A stretch of DNA of 36,331 nucleotides from Melioribacteraceae bacterium (GTDB lineage Bacteria; Bacteroidota; Ignavibacteria; Ignavibacteriales; Melioribacteraceae), in assembly GCA_026417375.1 (NCBI GenBank), contig JAOADJ010000055.1, positions 1-36,331 on the forward strand, given 5' to 3'. Below, one piece after another: positions 9,876 through 24,651 of this stretch. The notes beneath the pieces are model-generated. The model was not told where the DNA came from, did no database searches, and saw only the letters and a list, made by a program, of their open reading frames with translations. The position numbers were made by a program, and so were the translations under genes. Numbering within the stretch: position 1 is the stretch's first letter; each line of letters begins with the position of its first letter.

Positions 9876-10373
9876 CTACTTATTAAATTTTTTTGCACTC
9901 GAATAATTTTTTAAATCATAGTTAATCATTTTATCCGGCATTTGTAATCTTTTAATTTTTACTTTTGCAATATCAAAAAATTTTTCTGCCATTGTATCGT
10001 GATAATCAGAAAAAATAACTATTTCTTTAATTCCTGCAGCAATTAAAGCCTTAGCACAATTTGTACAAGGCATGTTAGTTATATAAGCTGTAGCATCTTG
10101 AGTACTTATTCCATGTTGCGAGCATTGGAGTAAAGCGTTCATCTCTGCATGAATAGTTCTTACACAATGATTATCAACAATCCAGCAACCTTCATCTTCA
10201 CAATGACCATCACCCGGAATTGAACCATTATAACCAGTTGATAAAATTTGACGATCTTTTACAAGAACGCAACCACAATGCATCCTTGGGCAGGTAGCTC
10301 TTTCAGAAACAAGCATTGCAACTTTTAAAAAATATTCATCCCAAGAAGGTCTTTTACTTTTTTTCTTTTTCAT
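9876..10373 (-). CDS. Deoxycytidylate (dCMP) deaminase, ComEB type
   Basis: Zinc-dependent deaminase converting dCMP to dUMP for thymidylate synthesis; 165 residues. The zinc site is seen as HAE (His75, catalytic Glu77) and PCTNC (Cys103, Cys106). The extra Cys/His cluster at about residues 28-70 (TCPRMHCGC, GHCEDEGC, NHC) is typical of dCMP deaminases and separates it from cytidine deaminases. The lysine-rich start MKKKK follows a promoter-like TAAATTTG at 10390-10397. First gene of a two-gene unit with ppk1. Confidence 0.94.
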   Translation of the reverse strand: MKKKKSKRPSWDEYFLKVAMLVSERATCPRMHCGCVLVKDRQILSTGYNGSIPGDGHCEDEGCWIVDNHCVRTIHAEMNALLQCSQHGISTQDATAYITNMPCTNCAKALIAAGIKEIVIFSDYHDTMAEKFFDIAKVKIKRLQMPDKMINYDLKNYSSAKKFNK

Positions 10374-10397: not shown

Positions 10398-10418
10398 TAT
10401 AATATTTACAAAACATTT

Positions 10419-10516
10419 AAAATAAAAACTGCTAAGGATGAGGGCGGTCCTTAGCAGCTCGATCAGTAATTTAAGGAGGGGTTACTGATATCCAGTGTGA
10501 AAATTATCTTTTCACA
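10419..10516 (-). ncRNA. Candidate small RNA, three hairpins with C-rich loops
   Basis: Three perfect inverted repeats lie in tandem in transcript order (minus strand): TGTGAAAA/TTTTCACA with a 5-base loop (10516-10496); ATCAGTAA/TTACTGAT with loop CCCCTCCTTAAA (10489-10462); and CTGCTAAGGA/TCCTTAGCAG with loop CCGCCCTCA (10457-10429), followed by TTTTTATTTT, an intrinsic terminator. A full Bacteroidota-type promoter stands immediately upstream. The stretch is clearly more GC-rich than its surroundings, has no ORF, and gives an RNA of about 95-100 nt. The loop of hairpin 2 contains CCTCCTT, the same bases as the 16S rRNA anti-Shine-Dalgarno core, so both C-rich loops could pair with SD sequences of mRNAs. 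The alternative is a long 3' UTR and terminator of the histidine kinase transcript. I know no named family it matches. Confidence 0.68.
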
Positions 10517-10519
10517 TCA

Positions 10520-10550
10520 CAAAAATAATCAATAATTAAAAAAAAACAAA
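10520..10550 (-). promoter_or_regulatory. Promoter of the candidate small RNA
   Basis: Minus strand TTTG (10547-10550), 19 bp, TATTTTTG (10520-10527) fits both elements of the Bacteroidota primary-sigma promoter (TTTG / TAnnTTTG). It lies between the histidine kinase stop and the first hairpin. Transcription would start about 4-7 bases on, at the base of hairpin 1. Confidence 0.6.
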
Positions 10551-10567
10551 TAAATAATAAAATATTT

Positions 10568-11776
10568 TTATTCGGGTAAAATTATCTTAAATGTTGTGCC
10601 TTCATTTAATACTGAATTTTTAACAAAAATTTTACCTTTATGATAATCTTCTATTATTCTTTTTGATAAACTAAGTCCTAAACCCCAACCTCTTTTTTTA
10701 GTGCTAAAACCAGGTCTGAAAATATCTTTTTTCCTGCCAGGTTCAATTCCTTTTCCATTATCTGATACTTCAATTTCAATTTTATTTTTAATTTTTTGTA
10801 CGGAAAATTTTATTATACCATTTTTATTCTCTATAGCATCTAGAGAATTTTTTATTAAATTTTCAATAACCCATTCAAACAATTCAGCATTGATTTTTGA
10901 TTTACATTCAATATCACCATCAATTTGAATTGAAACGTTTTTGCCAAGTTGCGGTAATCTTCTTTGAAAATAATTAATTACTTTTTCTATTATTAAATAT
11001 GGAGAGTTTTCAATTAATTCTGGCTTTGAACCAATTTTGGAAAATCTTCTTGTAATTTTATTTAATCTATTTAAATCATTTTCAATTTCTTCAGAGGTAT
11101 CAAGTACTTTATCAGGATTATTATAATTCATTTTTAGAATTTCATTCCAACCCATTAAACTAGAAATAGGTGTACCTAATTGATGAGCAGTTTCCTTAGA
11201 CATTCCAACCCATATATTACTTTGTTCGCTTCTTTTTATATAACTAAAACTTAAGTAAGAAATTAAAATGAAAATGAATGCAAAAATTATTTGCAAAAAA
11301 GGATAATATTTAAGTCTATTTATAATTTCAGAATCGCCATAATAAATTTTTTGAAGAACAACTCCATCTTTTGTAGTAACTAAAATTGGTTGATGTGATT
11401 TTGCTAATTCATAAACTTGTTTTTGTAAATAATTTTTTATTTCATTTTTGGTAAAAGTAGAATCAATCAGAATATTTTTATAACCAAATCCAACTTCAGT
11501 TGAAATTATTTTGTCATTTTTATCTGTTAAAATAAGAGGGAAGTCAATTCGATTAATAATATTATTAAAAATAAAATTTAAGTCGTTAGTTTCAGAATTT
11601 GGGTCGGCAGCATATTCTAATCCACTTGCAAATAACTGTACAATATCTTTTTCACGCTGTTGAAGTTTTTCTACTAAATTTTGTGTGTAATATAAAGTAG
11701 AAAATGCAATTAATGAGCCAATTATAACAAGTGATAATTTTATTTTTAATGAAGATATAGTTAAAGCAAAATTCAT
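10568..11776 (-). CDS. Membrane sensor histidine kinase, orphan
   Basis: Two-component sensor kinase, 402 residues. Membrane helices at about 11-31 and 159-180 flank a sensor domain of about 125 residues; no HAMP domain is evident. The H-box is SKETAHQLGTPISSL with phospho-acceptor His198. The ATPase domain has the N-box 'ELFEWVIENLIKNSLDA', G1 SDNGKGIEPG and G2 GWGLGLSLSK. The start ATG directly adjoins the purA stop (TAAATG), so it is translated from the purA message. No response regulator is in the window, so partner and signal are unknown. Confidence 0.9.
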   Translation of the reverse strand: MNFALTISSLKIKLSLVIIGSLIAFSTLYYTQNLVEKLQQREKDIVQLFASGLEYAADPNSETNDLNFIFNNIINRIDFPLILTDKNDKIISTEVGFGYKNILIDSTFTKNEIKNYLQKQVYELAKSHQPILVTTKDGVVLQKIYYGDSEIINRLKYYPFLQIIFAFIFILISYLSFSYIKRSEQSNIWVGMSKETAHQLGTPISSLMGWNEILKMNYNNPDKVLDTSEEIENDLNRLNKITRRFSKIGSKPELIENSPYLIIEKVINYFQRRLPQLGKNVSIQIDGDIECKSKINAELFEWVIENLIKNSLDAIENKNGIIKFSVQKIKNKIEIEVSDNGKGIEPGRKKDIFRPGFSTKKRGWGLGLSLSKRIIEDYHKGKIFVKNSVLNEGTTFKIILPE

Positions 11777-13642: not shown

Positions 13643-14242
13643 ATGAATTTAACAAAAGAAAATGATCATTTTGATTTAAGTGATTCAAATAATGAAAGAG
13701 AAGAAGATTTTGATTTGATTAGAAGATTTAACAAAGGTGATCAAACTACATTTAAATTATTAATGATAAAACATAAAGATAAAGTAAGGAACTTAGTATT
13801 TTTAACTCTTGGTGATGTTGATTATGTAGATGATATTTCTCAAGATGTTTTTATAAGTGTTTATCATAAATTAAATGAGTTTCGATTCGAATCGAAGTTT
13901 ACAACTTGGCTTTATAGAATTACAATTAATAAATGCAAGGATTATTTAAGAAAGAAAAAAGTTCGAAATATTTTTGTTGCCATTCAGGATAATGAAACAG
14001 ACTATGGAGCAAAACCTTTTACTGAAAATATTGATATTCCGAATCTTGTTCGGAGTGCAATAGATAAACTACCTGAAAAACTTCGGATCCCATTAATAAT
14101 GAGAGATATAGATGGTTTTAGCTATAAAGAAATTGCTGATGAATTAGGAACTGAAGTTGGAACAATAAAATCAAGAATATTTAGAGCTCGGGAGACTTTG
14201 AAAATAATTTTAGAACCATTTCAAAAAGAACTTAGATTTTAA
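13643..14242 (+). CDS. ECF (group 4) sigma factor
   Basis: RNA polymerase sigma factor of 199 residues with region 2 ('VDDISQDVFISVYHKL' and FTTWLYRITINKCKDYLRKKK) and region 4 ('LIMRDIDGFSYKEIADELG' and TEVGTIKSRIFRARETL, a helix-turn-helix). No region 1 or 3 is present. An acidic stretch of about 25 residues precedes region 2. No SD precedes the ATG, and an ECF-like promoter ends 7 bases before it. Downstream there is no typical zinc-binding anti-sigma gene. Instead an unknown membrane-anchored protein and a full partner-switching set follow in the same direction, which suggests unusual control. Targets are unknown. Confidence 0.95.
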   Translation: MNLTKENDHFDLSDSNNEREEDFDLIRRFNKGDQTTFKLLMIKHKDKVRNLVFLTLGDVDYVDDISQDVFISVYHKLNEFRFESKFTTWLYRITINKCKDYLRKKKVRNIFVAIQDNETDYGAKPFTENIDIPNLVRSAIDKLPEKLRIPLIMRDIDGFSYKEIADELGTEVGTIKSRIFRARETLKIILEPFQKELRF

Positions 14243-14267
14243 ATTGAGCGTTGAAAAAAATTCAATA

Positions 14268-15392
14268 ATGAAAAATTGGAAAAAATATTTGATTTATTTT
14301 TTTCTTTTTGTTTTAACTTTAGTTTTAATGATAAACTTTAAGCATAAAAAAAGTTTATTTAAATATTACGATGACAGTAAAAATAAATTAATATCATACA
14401 TAAATAATCTAAATCCACTTTTTGCTAAAACAAATTTATCTAATGAAGATATTTTTAATTTTGCTTTTTATAAAACATTACCAATTGATAAAGAAAAAAA
14501 TAAAATATTAATTGTTGATAATATTAATAACAAGAATTTAATTGAAATAAAAACTTTACCAATCCACAAAACTGAAAATCTAAAATCATATTTAAGTTAT
14601 ATCAATTCCGAAGAAAAAAATAAAAGAAAGATTGATTCAGTTTTAAATAAGTATAAAAATGAAGTTTACCAAAACATTTTTACCGGTGATGAATCATATG
14701 CAATAAATCCAAATATAATATTGATAAGAGAAAATTTATTGAACGATTTAGTTAGAATATCTCAAAAAATTGATATTAAAAAATCTGAAGTTATTTTCTC
14801 AACAAACAAAATTAAAGAACTTAATAATTTTAGCATAAATAAAAAGGATATTAATAAGCATAATTATTTTATTATTACTAAAGATACTGTGATTGAAACC
14901 AAGCTATCTTTTAATAAAGAAATGTTTGAAAAGCATATTAAGAAGCTTGATGAAAATTTAGTTCCTATTAATAATGAATTGAATAAACCATTTATAAAAT
15001 TTAAAGCTGATTTAAATAAAAATTTACAAAGTGGTAAAATTATTAATTTAAAATTAGATACATCTCAAATCAAAATATTTTTTGATGACGAACTTGTTAA
15101 CAACTTAGTTAATGATAGCTTAAGACAACAATTTGATAAAAATATCAGAAACACAATTATTAAGTATGACAGGCATAAATATCAAAAAGAAAAAAACATA
15201 AAAAAGCCAATAATTATTTTTCACAATCCAAATGAAATTAATAATAAAATTGTTAATGATGCTGTCAACAAAAATTTTTATGATAAAAAAAATATAAATG
15301 ATTCTATCAGATTTCATAAAATCAAAAAAGATTTAAAAAGAGCTAATCAGGAACTAAAAAAATTAAACTTAGATACAATTAAAATATATTAA
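14268..15392 (+). CDS. Unknown protein with one N-terminal membrane helix
   Basis: I do not recognise this 374-residue protein. A short basic N-terminus (MKNWKK) leads into a single membrane helix (about 7-25). A long Lys/Asn/Ile-rich region follows, probably extracytoplasmic and partly helical. No cysteine cluster, protease motif or known anti-sigma domain is visible. It occupies the usual place of an anti-sigma gene, just after the ECF sigma, and overlaps the next gene by one base (TAATG), so it is co-translated with the first phosphatase. With so short a cytosolic part it cannot be a classical zinc-finger anti-sigma. A sensory or scaffold role is possible. The TTG at 14244 is an alternative start. 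Confidence 0.7.
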   Translation: MKNWKKYLIYFFLFVLTLVLMINFKHKKSLFKYYDDSKNKLISYINNLNPLFAKTNLSNEDIFNFAFYKTLPIDKEKNKILIVDNINNKNLIEIKTLPIHKTENLKSYLSYINSEEKNKRKIDSVLNKYKNEVYQNIFTGDESYAINPNIILIRENLLNDLVRISQKIDIKKSEVIFSTNKIKELNNFSINKKDINKHNYFIITKDTVIETKLSFNKEMFEKHIKKLDENLVPINNELNKPFIKFKADLNKNLQSGKIINLKLDTSQIKIFFDDELVNNLVNDSLRQQFDKNIRNTIIKYDRHKYQKEKNIKKPIIIFHNPNEINNKIVNDAVNKNFYDKKNINDSIRFHKIKKDLKRANQELKKLNLDTIKIY

Positions 15393-17416
15393 TGAGAAAA
15401 AAAATAAATTTTATCAATATAAATAGTTTTGAAAATGTAATTGTATTTTCTTCAATTCTTTTCTTAGTAAATCTAATTTTTCCTTATCATAGTTCGGGAT
15501 TTGTTTATTTAATCAATGAACTACTTTTGTTCATAACTATATTTTTACTTTATAAAAGTTTATTGAAATTATTACAGGAAAAATCTTATTCTCCATTATC
15601 ATTAATCTTAAATTCAGGAATATTAGCAGCCATATTATTTTTTATTTTATCCTTAACCAATTCGGGATTCACATTAAACAACGACGGAACTGTTTATTAT
15701 AATTTTTTTAATTCACTTCTTTCTACATTAATAATTTTTGTTTTCATAGGATCAATTGTTTTTATCTTCACTTCTTTTCAGATATTATTTTTTTTAAGAA
15801 GTAAAAAAGATCTTTCAACATATTTTAATGTAATGTTATTTTTCTTGGCGATAAGTTTTCTTTCAAATTTATTATTAGTCTTTGATCCATCTTTAGATTA
15901 TCCACGCGATACATTTTTTATTGTATCAATTTTACTTATAACAATTAATTCTGTTCGTGTGGCATGGATTGCATTTCTTAATAAAAAACAAAAAAAATAT
16001 TTATTAATAATTTCAATTGTTTTAACAGTTATTTATAGTCTCACTTTTTCTCTTTTAATTGAATCGAACGTTGTAAAAAAAATTATTTATGCATTCTCCC
16101 CCGGATTTCATACAATTTTTAGTTTAGTTATGATCTACGGAGCAATTTATTTTCTTGTTATATTCTTTACAACTCTATTTCACTTACCAACTGCAGAAGC
16201 ATTTGACAGAAAAGCTCTCCAGGTTTCGTCACTAATGGACATTACAAAATTAATGACACAAGTTTTTGACTTTAAAGAATTAGCAGATACTATAACAGCA
16301 ATGACTACAGAAATTTGTAATTCTAATTCTGCATGGCTTGTTACAAAAGAAAATAATAAAATAGTTTTAAACTCAGTTTACAAAATTGGCTTTGTTGATG
16401 CAGATAAAATCAGCTATTCGCTTTTAGAAAAAAATAATATTAATGAAATTTTAGTTATAAATAATTCAGATAATAAAATTTATGGTCAGAATTACAATTC
16501 TATAGTTATTGCACCATTGAAAGTTTATGATAAAATAAATGGATATTTATTTACAGCCAGAGTTAAAGAAAATAATTTTGATGATGACGAAATAAAATCT
16601 GTTGAAGCATTTGCGAATTATGCTTCAGTCGCTTTAGAAAATGCAATGCTGATAAAAAAATCAATTGAAAAAGAAAGACTTGAAAAAGAACTTGATGTTG
16701 CAAGAGAAATACAAAGAAAAATTCTGCCACTTAAAACACCTAAATATGATAACCTTGAAATTTCAGCATTATTTATTCCTGCTTTTGAAGTAGGTGGTGA
16801 TTATTATTATTTTTTTGAATTAGATAATAACAATCTTGGATTTGTTGTTGCTGATGTATCCGGAAAAGGAATTTCTGCGGCTTTTATTATGGCACAAGTT
16901 GAAGGTGTTTTTGAATCACTTTCAAAAATGATTTCATCACCCAAAGATATTTTAATTAAAGTTAATGAAATATTAATTAGAAATTTAGGAAGAAAAAATT
17001 TTGTAACAGCAATCTATGGTAAATTAAACTTTGATTCTGGTAAATTAACAGTTGCAAGAGCAGGACATACACCAATATTGTATTTAAATAAAGAAAAAAT
17101 ATTTCAATTAAGACCCAAAGGAATTGGTTTAGGACTTGATGCTAAAGAAATTTTTCAAAATTCTTTGGAAGAAATGGAAATTAATTTAGAATATAATGAT
17201 ATTTTAGTGTATTATTCAGATGGTATTCCCGAAGCAAAAAATAATACTAACGAAGATTTTGGATATAAAAGATTGGAAGAAATTGTATTTAAAAATCGTA
17301 ATAATGATACCGACACTATAACAAATGAAATAATGAAAGAATTAAGTTTATTTACGAAAGATAAACCACAACATGATGATATAACATTGTTAATTTTCAA
17401 ATGGAAAAAAAATTAA
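15392..17416 (+). CDS. Membrane SpoIIE/RsbU-type PP2C phosphatase with GAF domain
   Basis: Serine phosphatase that would dephosphorylate a STAS antagonist; 674 residues. About eight membrane helices fill residues 15-262, a GAF-like sensor domain spans about 290-415, a coiled linker 'KERLEKELDVAREIQRKILP' follows, and the PP2C/SpoIIE domain occupies about 440-672. Metal-site motifs are VGGD (Asp470), VADVSGKG, DGIPEA and HDDITLL. The residue three after Asp470, often Asp in this family (GGDxYD), is Tyr. The start ATG overlaps the preceding stop (TAATG). A membrane sensor coupled to a phosphatase is a usual input module of partner switching. The STAS target probably lies 20 bases downstream. 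Confidence 0.92.
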   Translation: MRKKINFININSFENVIVFSSILFLVNLIFPYHSSGFVYLINELLLFITIFLLYKSLLKLLQEKSYSPLSLILNSGILAAILFFILSLTNSGFTLNNDGTVYYNFFNSLLSTLIIFVFIGSIVFIFTSFQILFFLRSKKDLSTYFNVMLFFLAISFLSNLLLVFDPSLDYPRDTFFIVSILLITINSVRVAWIAFLNKKQKKYLLIISIVLTVIYSLTFSLLIESNVVKKIIYAFSPGFHTIFSLVMIYGAIYFLVIFFTTLFHLPTAEAFDRKALQVSSLMDITKLMTQVFDFKELADTITAMTTEICNSNSAWLVTKENNKIVLNSVYKIGFVDADKISYSLLEKNNINEILVINNSDNKIYGQNYNSIVIAPLKVYDKINGYLFTARVKENNFDDDEIKSVEAFANYASVALENAMLIKKSIEKERLEKELDVAREIQRKILPLKTPKYDNLEISALFIPAFEVGGDYYYFFELDNNNLGFVVADVSGKGISAAFIMAQVEGVFESLSKMISSPKDILIKVNEILIRNLGRKNFVTAIYGKLNFDSGKLTVARAGHTPILYLNKEKIFQLRPKGIGLGLDAKEIFQNSLEEMEINLEYNDILVYYSDGIPEAKNNTNEDFGYKRLEEIVFKNRNNDTDTITNEIMKELSLFTKDKPQHDDITLLIFKWKKN

Positions 17417-17435
17417 TTAGAAACGGAGCAAACGA

Positions 17436-17795
17436 ATGGCAGATTTCAATGTAAACTTACGGGAAAAAGATTCTGTAAGTGTAATTGATGTAAAAGGATT
17501 TCTTGATGCTCATACAGCCCCAGAACTTGAAAATGTTTTCAATAAACTTATCGATACTAATCAGTTCAAAGTTGTTGTTAACTTCAATGAACTAAACTAC
17601 ATAAGTAGTGCTGGTCTCGGTGTTTTTATGGCTTATATAGAAACTATGAGAGAAAATAATGGCGATATTAAATTTTCTAATATGAAAGAAAATGTATATA
17701 ACATATTTGACCTTCTTGGTTTTCCTTTATTGTATGAATTCTTTAAAAATGAAGATGATGCTATTAATAAATTTTTAGAATCAGGAAAATTTTGA
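17436..17795 (+). CDS. STAS-domain anti-sigma antagonist (RsbV-like)
   Basis: A 119-residue STAS protein. The regulatory loop is NYISSAGLGVF, with Ser58 aligned to the phosphorylated Ser58 of SpoIIAA; the preceding Asp is replaced by Ser, as in many STAS proteins. It lies between a SpoIIE-type phosphatase and an RsbW-like kinase, the canonical order of a partner-switching unit. The start ATG at 17436 has GGAG upstream. Its TGA overlaps the TTG start of the kinase gene (TTGA), implying translational coupling and matched amounts of the two proteins. Confidence 0.93.
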   Translation: MADFNVNLREKDSVSVIDVKGFLDAHTAPELENVFNKLIDTNQFKVVVNFNELNYISSAGLGVFMAYIETMRENNGDIKFSNMKENVYNIFDLLGFPLLYEFFKNEDDAINKFLESGKF

Positions 17796-18226
17796 ATACC
17801 TCCAACAAAATATCGAATGTTCAATTAAAAATTAAAAGTAAAACTGAAAATCTTTCTGAAGTGAGATCTTTTGCAGAAAAAATTGCAAATCAATTAGGTT
17901 TTTCAGAAGATTCCATAAGTAAAATAATTCTTGCAATTGATGAAGCATGCACAAATATTATTAAACATGCTTATAAGTATGATCCAGATGGTGATATAAT
18001 AATTTCATTTAGTTTTAATGGTAATAAACTTTCAATTTCTATTCTTGATTATGGAAATCATTTTGATCCTGATAAAATTCCTGAACCAGATATAAAAGAA
18101 TATTATAAACAAAAGAAATCCGGTGGACTGGGAATGTTTTTAATGAAAAAGTTAATGGATGAAGTAGTTTACTCTACAACTTCAGGAAGTTATAACCAAG
18201 TTACACTTATTAAATATCTTTCATAA
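17792..18226 (+). CDS. RsbW/SpoIIAB-like serine kinase, anti-sigma type
   Basis: GHKL-fold kinase of 144 residues that would phosphorylate the STAS protein and, in known systems, sequester a sigma factor or other output. The N-box is LAIDEACTNIIKHAYKY, the G1 box SILDYGNHFDP and the G2 box SGGLGMFLMKKLMDEV. I use TTG at 17792: no ATG is in frame nearby, AGGA stands 5 bases before it, and it overlaps the STAS stop. Its partner could be the ECF sigma of this cluster, which would be atypical, or a regulator encoded elsewhere. Confidence 0.92.
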   Translation: MNTSNKISNVQLKIKSKTENLSEVRSFAEKIANQLGFSEDSISKIILAIDEACTNIIKHAYKYDPDGDIIISFSFNGNKLSISILDYGNHFDPDKIPEPDIKEYYKQKKSGGLGMFLMKKLMDEVVYSTTSGSYNQVTLIKYLS

Positions 18227-23780: not shown

Positions 23781-24245
23781 TCATGATTTATCCTTCATTA
23801 AATCTGATTCTTCATCTGTCAAAAATTTATCGAAAGAATTATCTTCATAATCTGAATCATCGGATTCAACAACTACATCATCGCCGTTTCCAGCTTTTGA
23901 TGCTTTGTTTAAGAATTGAATTCTTTTAGCTTTTATTTCAACGATTGTTCTATTTTTTCCATCTTCAGTTTTGAAAGTTCTGCTTTGTAATTCACCATCA
24001 ATTAAAACAGCACTTCCTTTTTTGAGTCTATCTTTGCAGCTATCTGCTAATTTATTCCATGCAACAATACCAACATAGCAAACATCTTCTTGCCATTGAT
24101 TTGTGCTATCTTTATATCTTCTATTAGCTGCAATATGAAAATTTACAACAGGTGTACCGTTTGAAGTTTGTCTAAATACAGGATCTTTAGTTAAGTTACC
24201 TGCAACAATTACGCTATTTAGTTCAGGCATCTTTAATTCAGCCAT
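23781..24245 (-). CDS. ssb: Single-stranded DNA-binding protein
   Basis: OB-fold SSB, 154 residues, in the classical place between rpsF and rpsR. The core (about 8-115) shows [50 protein letters not shown] and [11 protein letters not shown]. The tail is acidic ([22 protein letters not shown]) but ends in LMKDKS instead of the DDDIPF-type tip that recruits partner proteins in most bacteria. It may use an internal acidic site, or the genome may hold another SSB with the tip. AGGAGG precedes the ATG. Confidence 0.96.
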
Positions 24246-24264
24246 CGTTTCCTCCTACACTTAA

Positions 24265-24651
24265 TTAATTATTCTGGCTTTCTGTTGATTGATTAGTTAT
24301 TTCTTCTGCAACAGTATTGCTGGAAGATTCTTTTTGTTTTGAAATTGCTTCTAAAGCAAATTTGTCGAGCACAATCGTTAAGTAACGATAGATGTTTTCT
24401 TCGAGTCTGTAATTTCGCTCGAGAGTTGAAATTAAATCTGGTGTTGCTGTAAATCTGAAAATAGCATAGTAACCACTTTTAGTTTTTCTGATTGGATATG
24501 CTAATCTTTTACGTCCCCATTTGTCAACTTCGATTATGGAGCCACCATGATTTGTGATTGTTTCTTGAATTTTGTTAAGAATGACCTCAATTTGGTCATC
24601 TTCAAGAGCAGCGTTGATAAGAACAACACTTTCATATGTGCGTTGTTTCAT
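24265..24651 (-). CDS. rpsF: Small-subunit ribosomal protein bS6
   Basis: bS6 with the opening RTYESVVLINAALED, VDKWGRKRLAYPI and GYYAIFRFT; 128 residues including a Gln/Ser-rich tail. The longer frame would start with a GTG at 24663 that overlaps the SD GGGAGGTG, so ATG at 24651 is preferred. No promoter-like TAnnTTTG occurs in the 83 bases between pth and this gene; a small palindrome TCTGAA-T-TTCAGA lies at 24685-24697. The operon therefore probably runs on from prs-rplY-pth, and I cannot show an S6:S18-type leader. Confidence 0.97.
   Translation of the reverse strand: MKQRTYESVVLINAALEDDQIEVILNKIQETITNHGGSIIEVDKWGRKRLAYPIRKTKSGYYAIFRFTATPDLISTLERNYRLEENIYRYLTIVLDKFALEAISKQKESSSNTVAEEITNQSTESQNN

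Follow-up and report, generated by a model that had tools for sequence, protein, structure and literature searches.

A conserved small RNA gene of the order Ignavibacteriales with C-rich loops and, for most of the copies examined, a promoter of the sigma-54 type

What does the GC island on the minus strand (10550 to 10419) of contig JAOADJ010000055.1 from a Melioribacteraceae bacterium (assembly GCA_026417375.1) encode, and how might its product be controlled and act? The window, that is, the whole stretch of 36,331 nucleotides (nt) analyzed, carries there a promoter-like pair, three perfect hairpins with 6 bases between hairpins 1 and 2 and 4 bases between hairpins 2 and 3, and a tail. An earlier inspection of the letters alone (the sequence-only reading) described these elements correctly and assigned them to a complete small RNA (sRNA) gene with promoter-like and terminator sequences of its own, an assignment borne out by a covarying terminator stem, conserved C-rich loops, and matches to the covariance model R2 described below. 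The RNA gene is real and so far unnamed. Its best explanation as a whole, to which we assign a probability of roughly two in three, is a conserved, order-wide sRNA, mostly sigma-54-driven, the C-rich seeds of which would pair with G-rich mRNA starts. The features of the locus are as follows.

10547 to 10550, minus strand: -33-like element TTTG of a Bacteroidota housekeeping-type promoter (from sequence and promoter score)
10520 to 10527, minus strand: -7-like element TATTTTTG, of the TANNTTTG type (from sequence and promoter score)
10419 to 10516, minus strand: predicted small RNA (from the fold z score of -5.7 and R2 matches across the order)
10496 to 10516, minus strand: hairpin 1 at the 5' end, 8 base pairs (bp) with a loop of 5; sequence not conserved among relatives
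10462 to 10489, minus strand: hairpin 2, 8 bp, exposing CCCCTCCTTAAA; stem retained within the genus, weaker elsewhere
10470 to 10481, minus strand: C-rich loop CCCCTCCTTAAA of hairpin 2, putative seed 1; CCCTCC in 44 of 58 distinct alignment rows
10429 to 10457, minus strand: hairpin 3, the terminator stem, 10 bp; changes on both sides at 9 of 10 pairs among relatives
10439 to 10447, minus strand: loop of the terminator hairpin, CCGCCCTCA, putative seed 2; 57 of 58 distinct alignment rows have GCCCTC
10419 to 10428, minus strand: terminator tail TTTTTATTTT (from sequence)

The two promoter-like elements are separated by 19 bases (TTTG-N19-TATTTTTG, 10550 to 10520), and their position, together with that of the first hairpin, places the probable start of the RNA near 10514-10516. 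The segment 10516-10420 folded at -30.4 kcal/mol (z score, -5.7), and none of 200 dinucleotide shuffles reached an energy as low. In this predicted fold, hairpin 3 is extended by three pairs that use the linker and the tail. The hairpin was left out by a simple terminator scan because the scan allows loops of 3 to 8 bases and this loop has 9. As the sequence-only reading had stated, no open reading frame (ORF) accounts for the GC island: none of at least 60 amino acids spans the locus, and none of the three reading frames on the RNA strand runs through uninterrupted in the window, which argues against a small protein gene. Stem covariation and the insertions and deletions among relatives also disagree with such a gene. 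A tRNA search of the locus found none, and the genome of the window holds one match to the RNA sequence at an E value of 0.001.

With BLAST, each of the other five genomes of the genus gave a convincing match, as did one genome of another genus. A covariance model built from six sequences of the same genus alone (R1) matched 67 of the 164 genomes of the order Ignavibacteriales at an E value of 0.05; the matches in two of these 67 genomes (G068 and G101) were rejected. The second model (R2) was made from 63 hits, which it therefore matches by construction, and has the terminator stem as its sole structure. At an E value of 0.001, R2 matched 118 of the 164 genomes, corresponding to 54 of 68 genera and to 85 of 109 good-quality genomes; hit sequences were read for part of these 118 genomes. 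Conservation in relatives, on which the sequence-only reading had staked its proposal, was thus found by covariance search. Of 391 genomes sampled across the class, R2 matched 80 at an E value of 0.01: 73 belong to the order and six to a single family outside it (f13), and one weak case was rejected. The phylum-wide sample gave 39 matches among 395 genomes at an E value of 0.001, 38 of them within the order, and the one outside it was rejected. A broader pattern search of contigs yielded 114 stretches, many from unrelated phyla; 58 were rescored, and the three that matched at an E value of 0.05 corresponded to two contigs of the same class and one bare terminator. No Rfam family reached its gathering score for the window RNA, and nine sub-threshold matches up to an E value of 10 were taken as chance. 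Comparison of genomes thus shows a conserved, predicted small non-coding RNA gene through much of the order.

Several hits had been dropped before these counts. False hits were L080, L081, L087 (twice), L234 (genome G438), opposite-strand matches, and a hit in G604, which is a hairpin without the GCCCTC loop. Partial hits, located at contig ends or poorer, were L042, L044, L084, L085, L257, and, in f13, L226, L227, L229, and L231; L042 and L044 were left out of the promoter scoring described below, and L042 was kept in alignment A5. A contig publicly labeled Chlorobiaceae (PNNF01000018.1) shares its length and RNA hit L149 with G050:C18 of the Ignavibacteriales family f3.

The structure was supported at two depths of comparison. 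In a MAFFT alignment of six sequences made without structure, pairing was 100%, three pairs had changed on both sides, and the covariation score was reached by 1 of 500 shuffles. A second alignment of 58 distinct rows was fitted to the covariance model and hence leans towards structure; in it, 97.2% of the cells of the terminator helix were paired, with changes on both sides at 9 of the 10 pairs, and the first helix was paired in 85.4% of the cells with letters. The covariation of the whole structure was 0.410 as compared to 0.157 after shuffling (0 of 500 shuffles), and control versions with slid helices had 23 to 41% paired cells. The terminator helix contains 24 G-U cells that would be C-A on the opposite strand, which supports the minus strand. 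The information content was 1.56 bits in the terminator loop, 1.28 in the stem, 1.23 in the first C-rich segment, and 0.77 in the remaining columns. The terminator loop, although dispensable for termination, is thus the best-kept part, and the first C-rich segment is less strict (GCCCTC and CCCTCC in 57 and 44 of the 58 rows, respectively). The expectation of covarying stems with unchanged C-rich loops therefore held for the terminator stem and its loop; it held less well for CCCTCC and for the stem of hairpin 2, which weakens outside the genus. Among 71 copies, the predicted unpaired probability was 0.90 for the C-rich run and 0.92 for the terminator loop, as compared to 0.53 for all positions. 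In L045, L048, and L049, which belong to one genus, the 5' region holds an extra GCCCTC; in the single copy that was folded, it falls within a hairpin loop.

A second feature became visible only with the relatives and had been missed by the sequence-only reading, namely, a sigma-54-type promoter. The -24/-12 promoters of this class have the consensus TGGCAC-N5-TTGC. We scanned the region 55 to 150 bases before the terminator loop in 106 copies, a set smaller than that of all copies, as genomes matched in the later R2 search and some class-wide ones lie outside it. The pattern TGGYAY-N5-TTG was perfect in 77 copies, and 8 more scored 8 of 9, so that 85 of the 106 reached 8 or more. The corresponding numbers of perfect and 8-of-9 matches were 0 and 2 on the reverse strand, 2 and 0 in the next upstream segment, and 0.1 and 2.4 in mononucleotide shuffles. 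The 106 copies are related and do not represent 106 independent events; their flanks and spacers differ between genera. When transcription was taken to start 12 bases downstream of the -12 position, the predicted RNAs of 71 perfect copies had 75 to 105 nt, with a median of 87; the other six of the 77 (four of f13, L259, and one of L243) were left out. In 21 of these 71 copies, a 5' hairpin of 6 bp or more began within 8 nt of the predicted start, as compared to 3.8 expected. The gene rpoN was found in 158 of the 164 genomes of the order, including those of the window species and its sister Stygiobacter electus. Transcription by sigma-54 is thus strongly indicated, from promoter sequence, for most members examined; since the site is missing in both the window species and S. 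electus, this holds for the family and not for the window copy.

The RNA gene usually occurs once per genome. In one genus (L252 to L257, genomes G119 and G023), there are several copies, with five matches in G119 at an E value of 0.01; some are tandem copies spaced by about 110 bases. The terminator loop is identical and the 5' hairpins differ, and none of the copies scored has a perfect sigma-54 site. In three further genera (L260, L243, and L250), the gene occurs in tandem pairs about 200 to 290 bases apart, and every copy there has a sigma-54-type site scoring 8 or 9 of 9. The f13 members L224, L225, L228, and L230 have several C-rich segments in a row and TGGCAY-N5-TTG 106 to 108 bases before the loop, a site that L232 and L233 of the same family do not have.

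The sigma-54 site is absent from the window species and S. electus and present in four relatives of the same genus. In these two species, a housekeeping-type pair lies 74 and 76 bases from the loop. Scored against the Bacteroidota housekeeping promoter consensus, the window promoter TTTG-N19-TATTTTTG reached 10 of 10, and CTTG-N19-TATTTTTG of S. electus reached 9 of 10. Three members of another genus have TTTG-N19-TATATTTG (10 of 10) and one member of a third genus has CTTG-N19-TATATTTG (9 of 10), located 68 to 93 bases from the loop. Overall, among 22 copies taken as lacking the sigma-54 site, one of which (the second copy of L252) has an 8-of-9 sigma-54 match, four scored 10 and five scored 9, as compared to 0.1 and 1.1 in shuffles; three of these nine (L041, the second of L252, and L233) are poor by eye. 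Among 39 sigma-54-type copies, three scored 9 and none scored 10, with 1.2 and 0.0 expected. On a tree of 40 neighboring kinases, of which eight adjoin copies that lack the site, the promoter type must have changed three times, and well-supported branches force each of these changes. Sigma-54-type relatives surround both the window pair and the L045 genus; the third group (L051, L056, and L058) lies near the arbitrary root, and the tree leaves the directions of change unfixed. Loss of rpoN was rejected as the cause, because the gene is present in both G000 (the window genome) and G005 (S. electus). Taken together, these sequences strongly indicate that the window species and S. electus exchanged a sigma-54 promoter for a housekeeping-type one, as did another genus, and that a third lineage is without the site.

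The genes flanking the RNA in the window are the following.

10568 to 11776, minus strand: histidine kinase gene, upstream of the RNA and its usual neighbor (Pfam HATPase_c; HisKA slightly under the cut-off)
9876 to 10373, minus strand: deoxycytidylate deaminase-like gene, downstream (domain and profile matches)

In 42 of 67 loci, the RNA directly follows a kinase gene of the same strand, an arrangement that would suit a mere terminator of a kinase operon, with a structured 3' untranslated region devoid of any function in trans. We consider this explanation very improbable, since a sigma-54-type site shortly precedes the RNA in 77 of the 106 copies, the best-kept part is a loop that termination does not need, and the RNA is retained in extra copies elsewhere and behind an opposite-strand gene that we take to be nadA-like. 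The latter gene precedes the RNA in 16 of the 67 loci, and the end of the kinase gene is visible beyond it in 7. Membership of the neighboring kinase in the pathway that activates the RNA is speculative. Near the RNA gene, at 13643-18226 of the window, reading of the translations indicated an ECF-type sigma factor, a SpoIIE-type phosphatase, a STAS protein, and an anti-sigma-type ATPase.

Under the preferred explanation of a sigma-54-driven, mRNA-pairing sRNA, an enhancer-binding activator would, in most members, be switched on and cause the sigma-54 promoter to fire, so that the RNA of about 75 to 105 nt would be made only when this activator is on. The terminator hairpin displays the near-invariant GCCCTC, which is preceded by another C-rich segment, likewise single-stranded and in most cases CCCTCC. 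Both may act as seeds that pair with G-rich stretches of mRNAs, mostly in the GGAGG-type ribosome-binding region, and such pairing would lower the translation of the targets. It would need to work without Hfq, as this protein was above the cut-off in none of 59 genomes of the order and was not found in the window genome; one sub-threshold match in G029 is interrupted by stops. Among the modes of action considered, pairing with mRNA starts would be the likeliest.

Searches for target sites were centered on the complements of the two segments. Sites common to the window genome and S. electus precede three genes, presumably uppS, a DUF1641-like gene, and a gene for a 167-amino-acid protein; this comparison covered 30 of 40 GAGGGC matches and all 26 GGAGGG matches. 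The 16S rRNA gene of the window genome runs off its contig, and its 3' end is not contained in the assembly. Two genes at 23781-24651 of the window, which we take to be ssb-like and rpsF-like, have GGAGG and GGGAGG before their starts and are natural candidates for a C-rich RNA. Related lipoprotein-like genes at L285, L286, and L291 (S. electus) and L321 (window genome) have the starts GGAGGGGGAATG or GAGGGCTAATATG, complementary to the loops.

A number of results weigh against the pairing sRNA under activator control. The pattern GGAGGG-N3-11-ATG was not enriched in the window genome (6 sites versus 7 for the reversed pattern), and GAGGGC-N1-16-ATG was rarer than its reversed control in both the window genome (19 versus 43) and S. 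electus (21 versus 30). The DUF1641-like candidate failed when followed further: 30 loci were found and 25 starts located, and GAGGGC preceded two of them, one in S. electus and one in the window species. With 1.23 versus 1.28 bits, the first C-rich segment is conserved no better than the terminator stem, and its openness of 0.90 is a value without a shuffled control for a segment chosen for its C content. As many as 46 of the 164 genomes of the order, including all four of g18, are without an R2 match. No clear activator-binding motif was recovered upstream of 52 loci: no dyad was common to more than 6 of them, and the words enriched over shuffles were mostly A/T-rich. In 9 of the 67 loci, some of them at contig ends, neither the kinase nor the nadA-like gene lies beside the RNA, and none of the NCBIfam matches of the kinase (AtoS, PnpS, ZraS, PrsK, and others) comes near the cut-off; AtoS, ZraS, and PrsK act with NtrC-type activators. 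Finally, the three promoter-type changes on the kinase tree need not be three losses.

The target counts bear on two further explanations. The sequence-only reading saw in the RNA a global anti-Shine-Dalgarno (SD) riboregulator covering many ribosome-binding sites. In favor of this role, CCCCTCCTT complements strong SD sequences, several window genes carry GGAGG-type sites complementary to the loops, and in S. electus GGAGGG-N3-11-ATG sites outnumber the reversed pattern by 20 to 11, the lone exception to the lack of enrichment. Given the rarity of GGAGGG before ATG in the window genome and the GAGGGC counts below the control in both genomes, we regard this broad role as improbable. The covering of ribosome-binding sites was not borne out, as complementary sites were not enriched overall and the site before the one shared candidate target that was followed does not recur in other relatives.

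The same lack of enrichment would be expected of the main rival, a decoy RNA whose repeated C-rich single-stranded segments titrate an RNA-binding protein instead of binding mRNAs. CrcZ is one precedent for such an RNA. The short motif repeated in the loops and the extra GCCCTC in one genus also fit a decoy, as does the example of GlmY, a sigma-54-driven RNA beside a kinase gene that acts in this manner (PMC7073468, PMC6075780, PMC8745638). However, each molecule has only two to three motifs, no candidate protein partner is known, and the motif, like that of RoxS (PMC8216469), is complementary to the ribosome-binding consensus. A decoy is therefore unlikely in our view, albeit less so than the other two alternatives.

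Two known systems resemble the Ignavibacteriales RNA in part. In RoxS of Bacillus subtilis, C-rich regions pair with targets, including the SD sequence of ppnKB (PMC8216469). The likeness to RoxS and RsaE, its counterpart in Staphylococcus, consists of C-rich regions in open loops, predicted here; in contrast, both are from another phylum (Firmicutes), neither is among the nine Rfam matches up to an E value of 10, and the Ignavibacteriales RNA mostly has a sigma-54-type promoter. With GlmY, it shares this promoter type and an adjoining kinase gene, in GlmY that of QseE/QseF, and GlmY also has an alternative housekeeping promoter, according to the three reports cited above. In contrast to GlmY, no response regulator was noticed among the immediate neighbors of the Ignavibacteriales loci (most of which were grouped and not domain scanned), there is no match to the Rfam model of either GlmY or GlmZ, and the two promoter types alternate between lineages. 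The promoter types of GlmZ reportedly alternate among enterobacteria. The best sub-threshold Rfam match, RAGATH-23 (RF03099), with 20 bits over the whole length, was taken as chance (gathering score of 92.6 bits; E value of 0.086). Among open-access papers retrieved for small RNAs or sigma-54 in Ignavibacteria, none concerns such an RNA, as judged from title and start of the abstract; most subscription papers lie outside this scope.

We thus favor a pairing sRNA and put forward, tentatively and at just under even odds, a more specific statement: that, in the Bacteroidota branch, an Hfq-independent, order-wide sRNA ties sigma-54 signaling to translation via two anti-SD-like segments, and that its control moved between sigma-54 and the housekeeping sigma factor in three lineages while the RNA stayed. 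To our knowledge, sRNA biology without Hfq is little charted in the Bacteroidota branch. The RNA offers a handle for its study, with mostly one gene per genome, a recognizable promoter, a near-invariant loop, and hosts such as Stygiobacter electus 09-Me. The promoter exchange separates the timing of RNA synthesis from the action of the RNA, and, if the proposal is true, promoter shifts around a constant RNA would be a natural experiment in the rewiring of an sRNA regulon.
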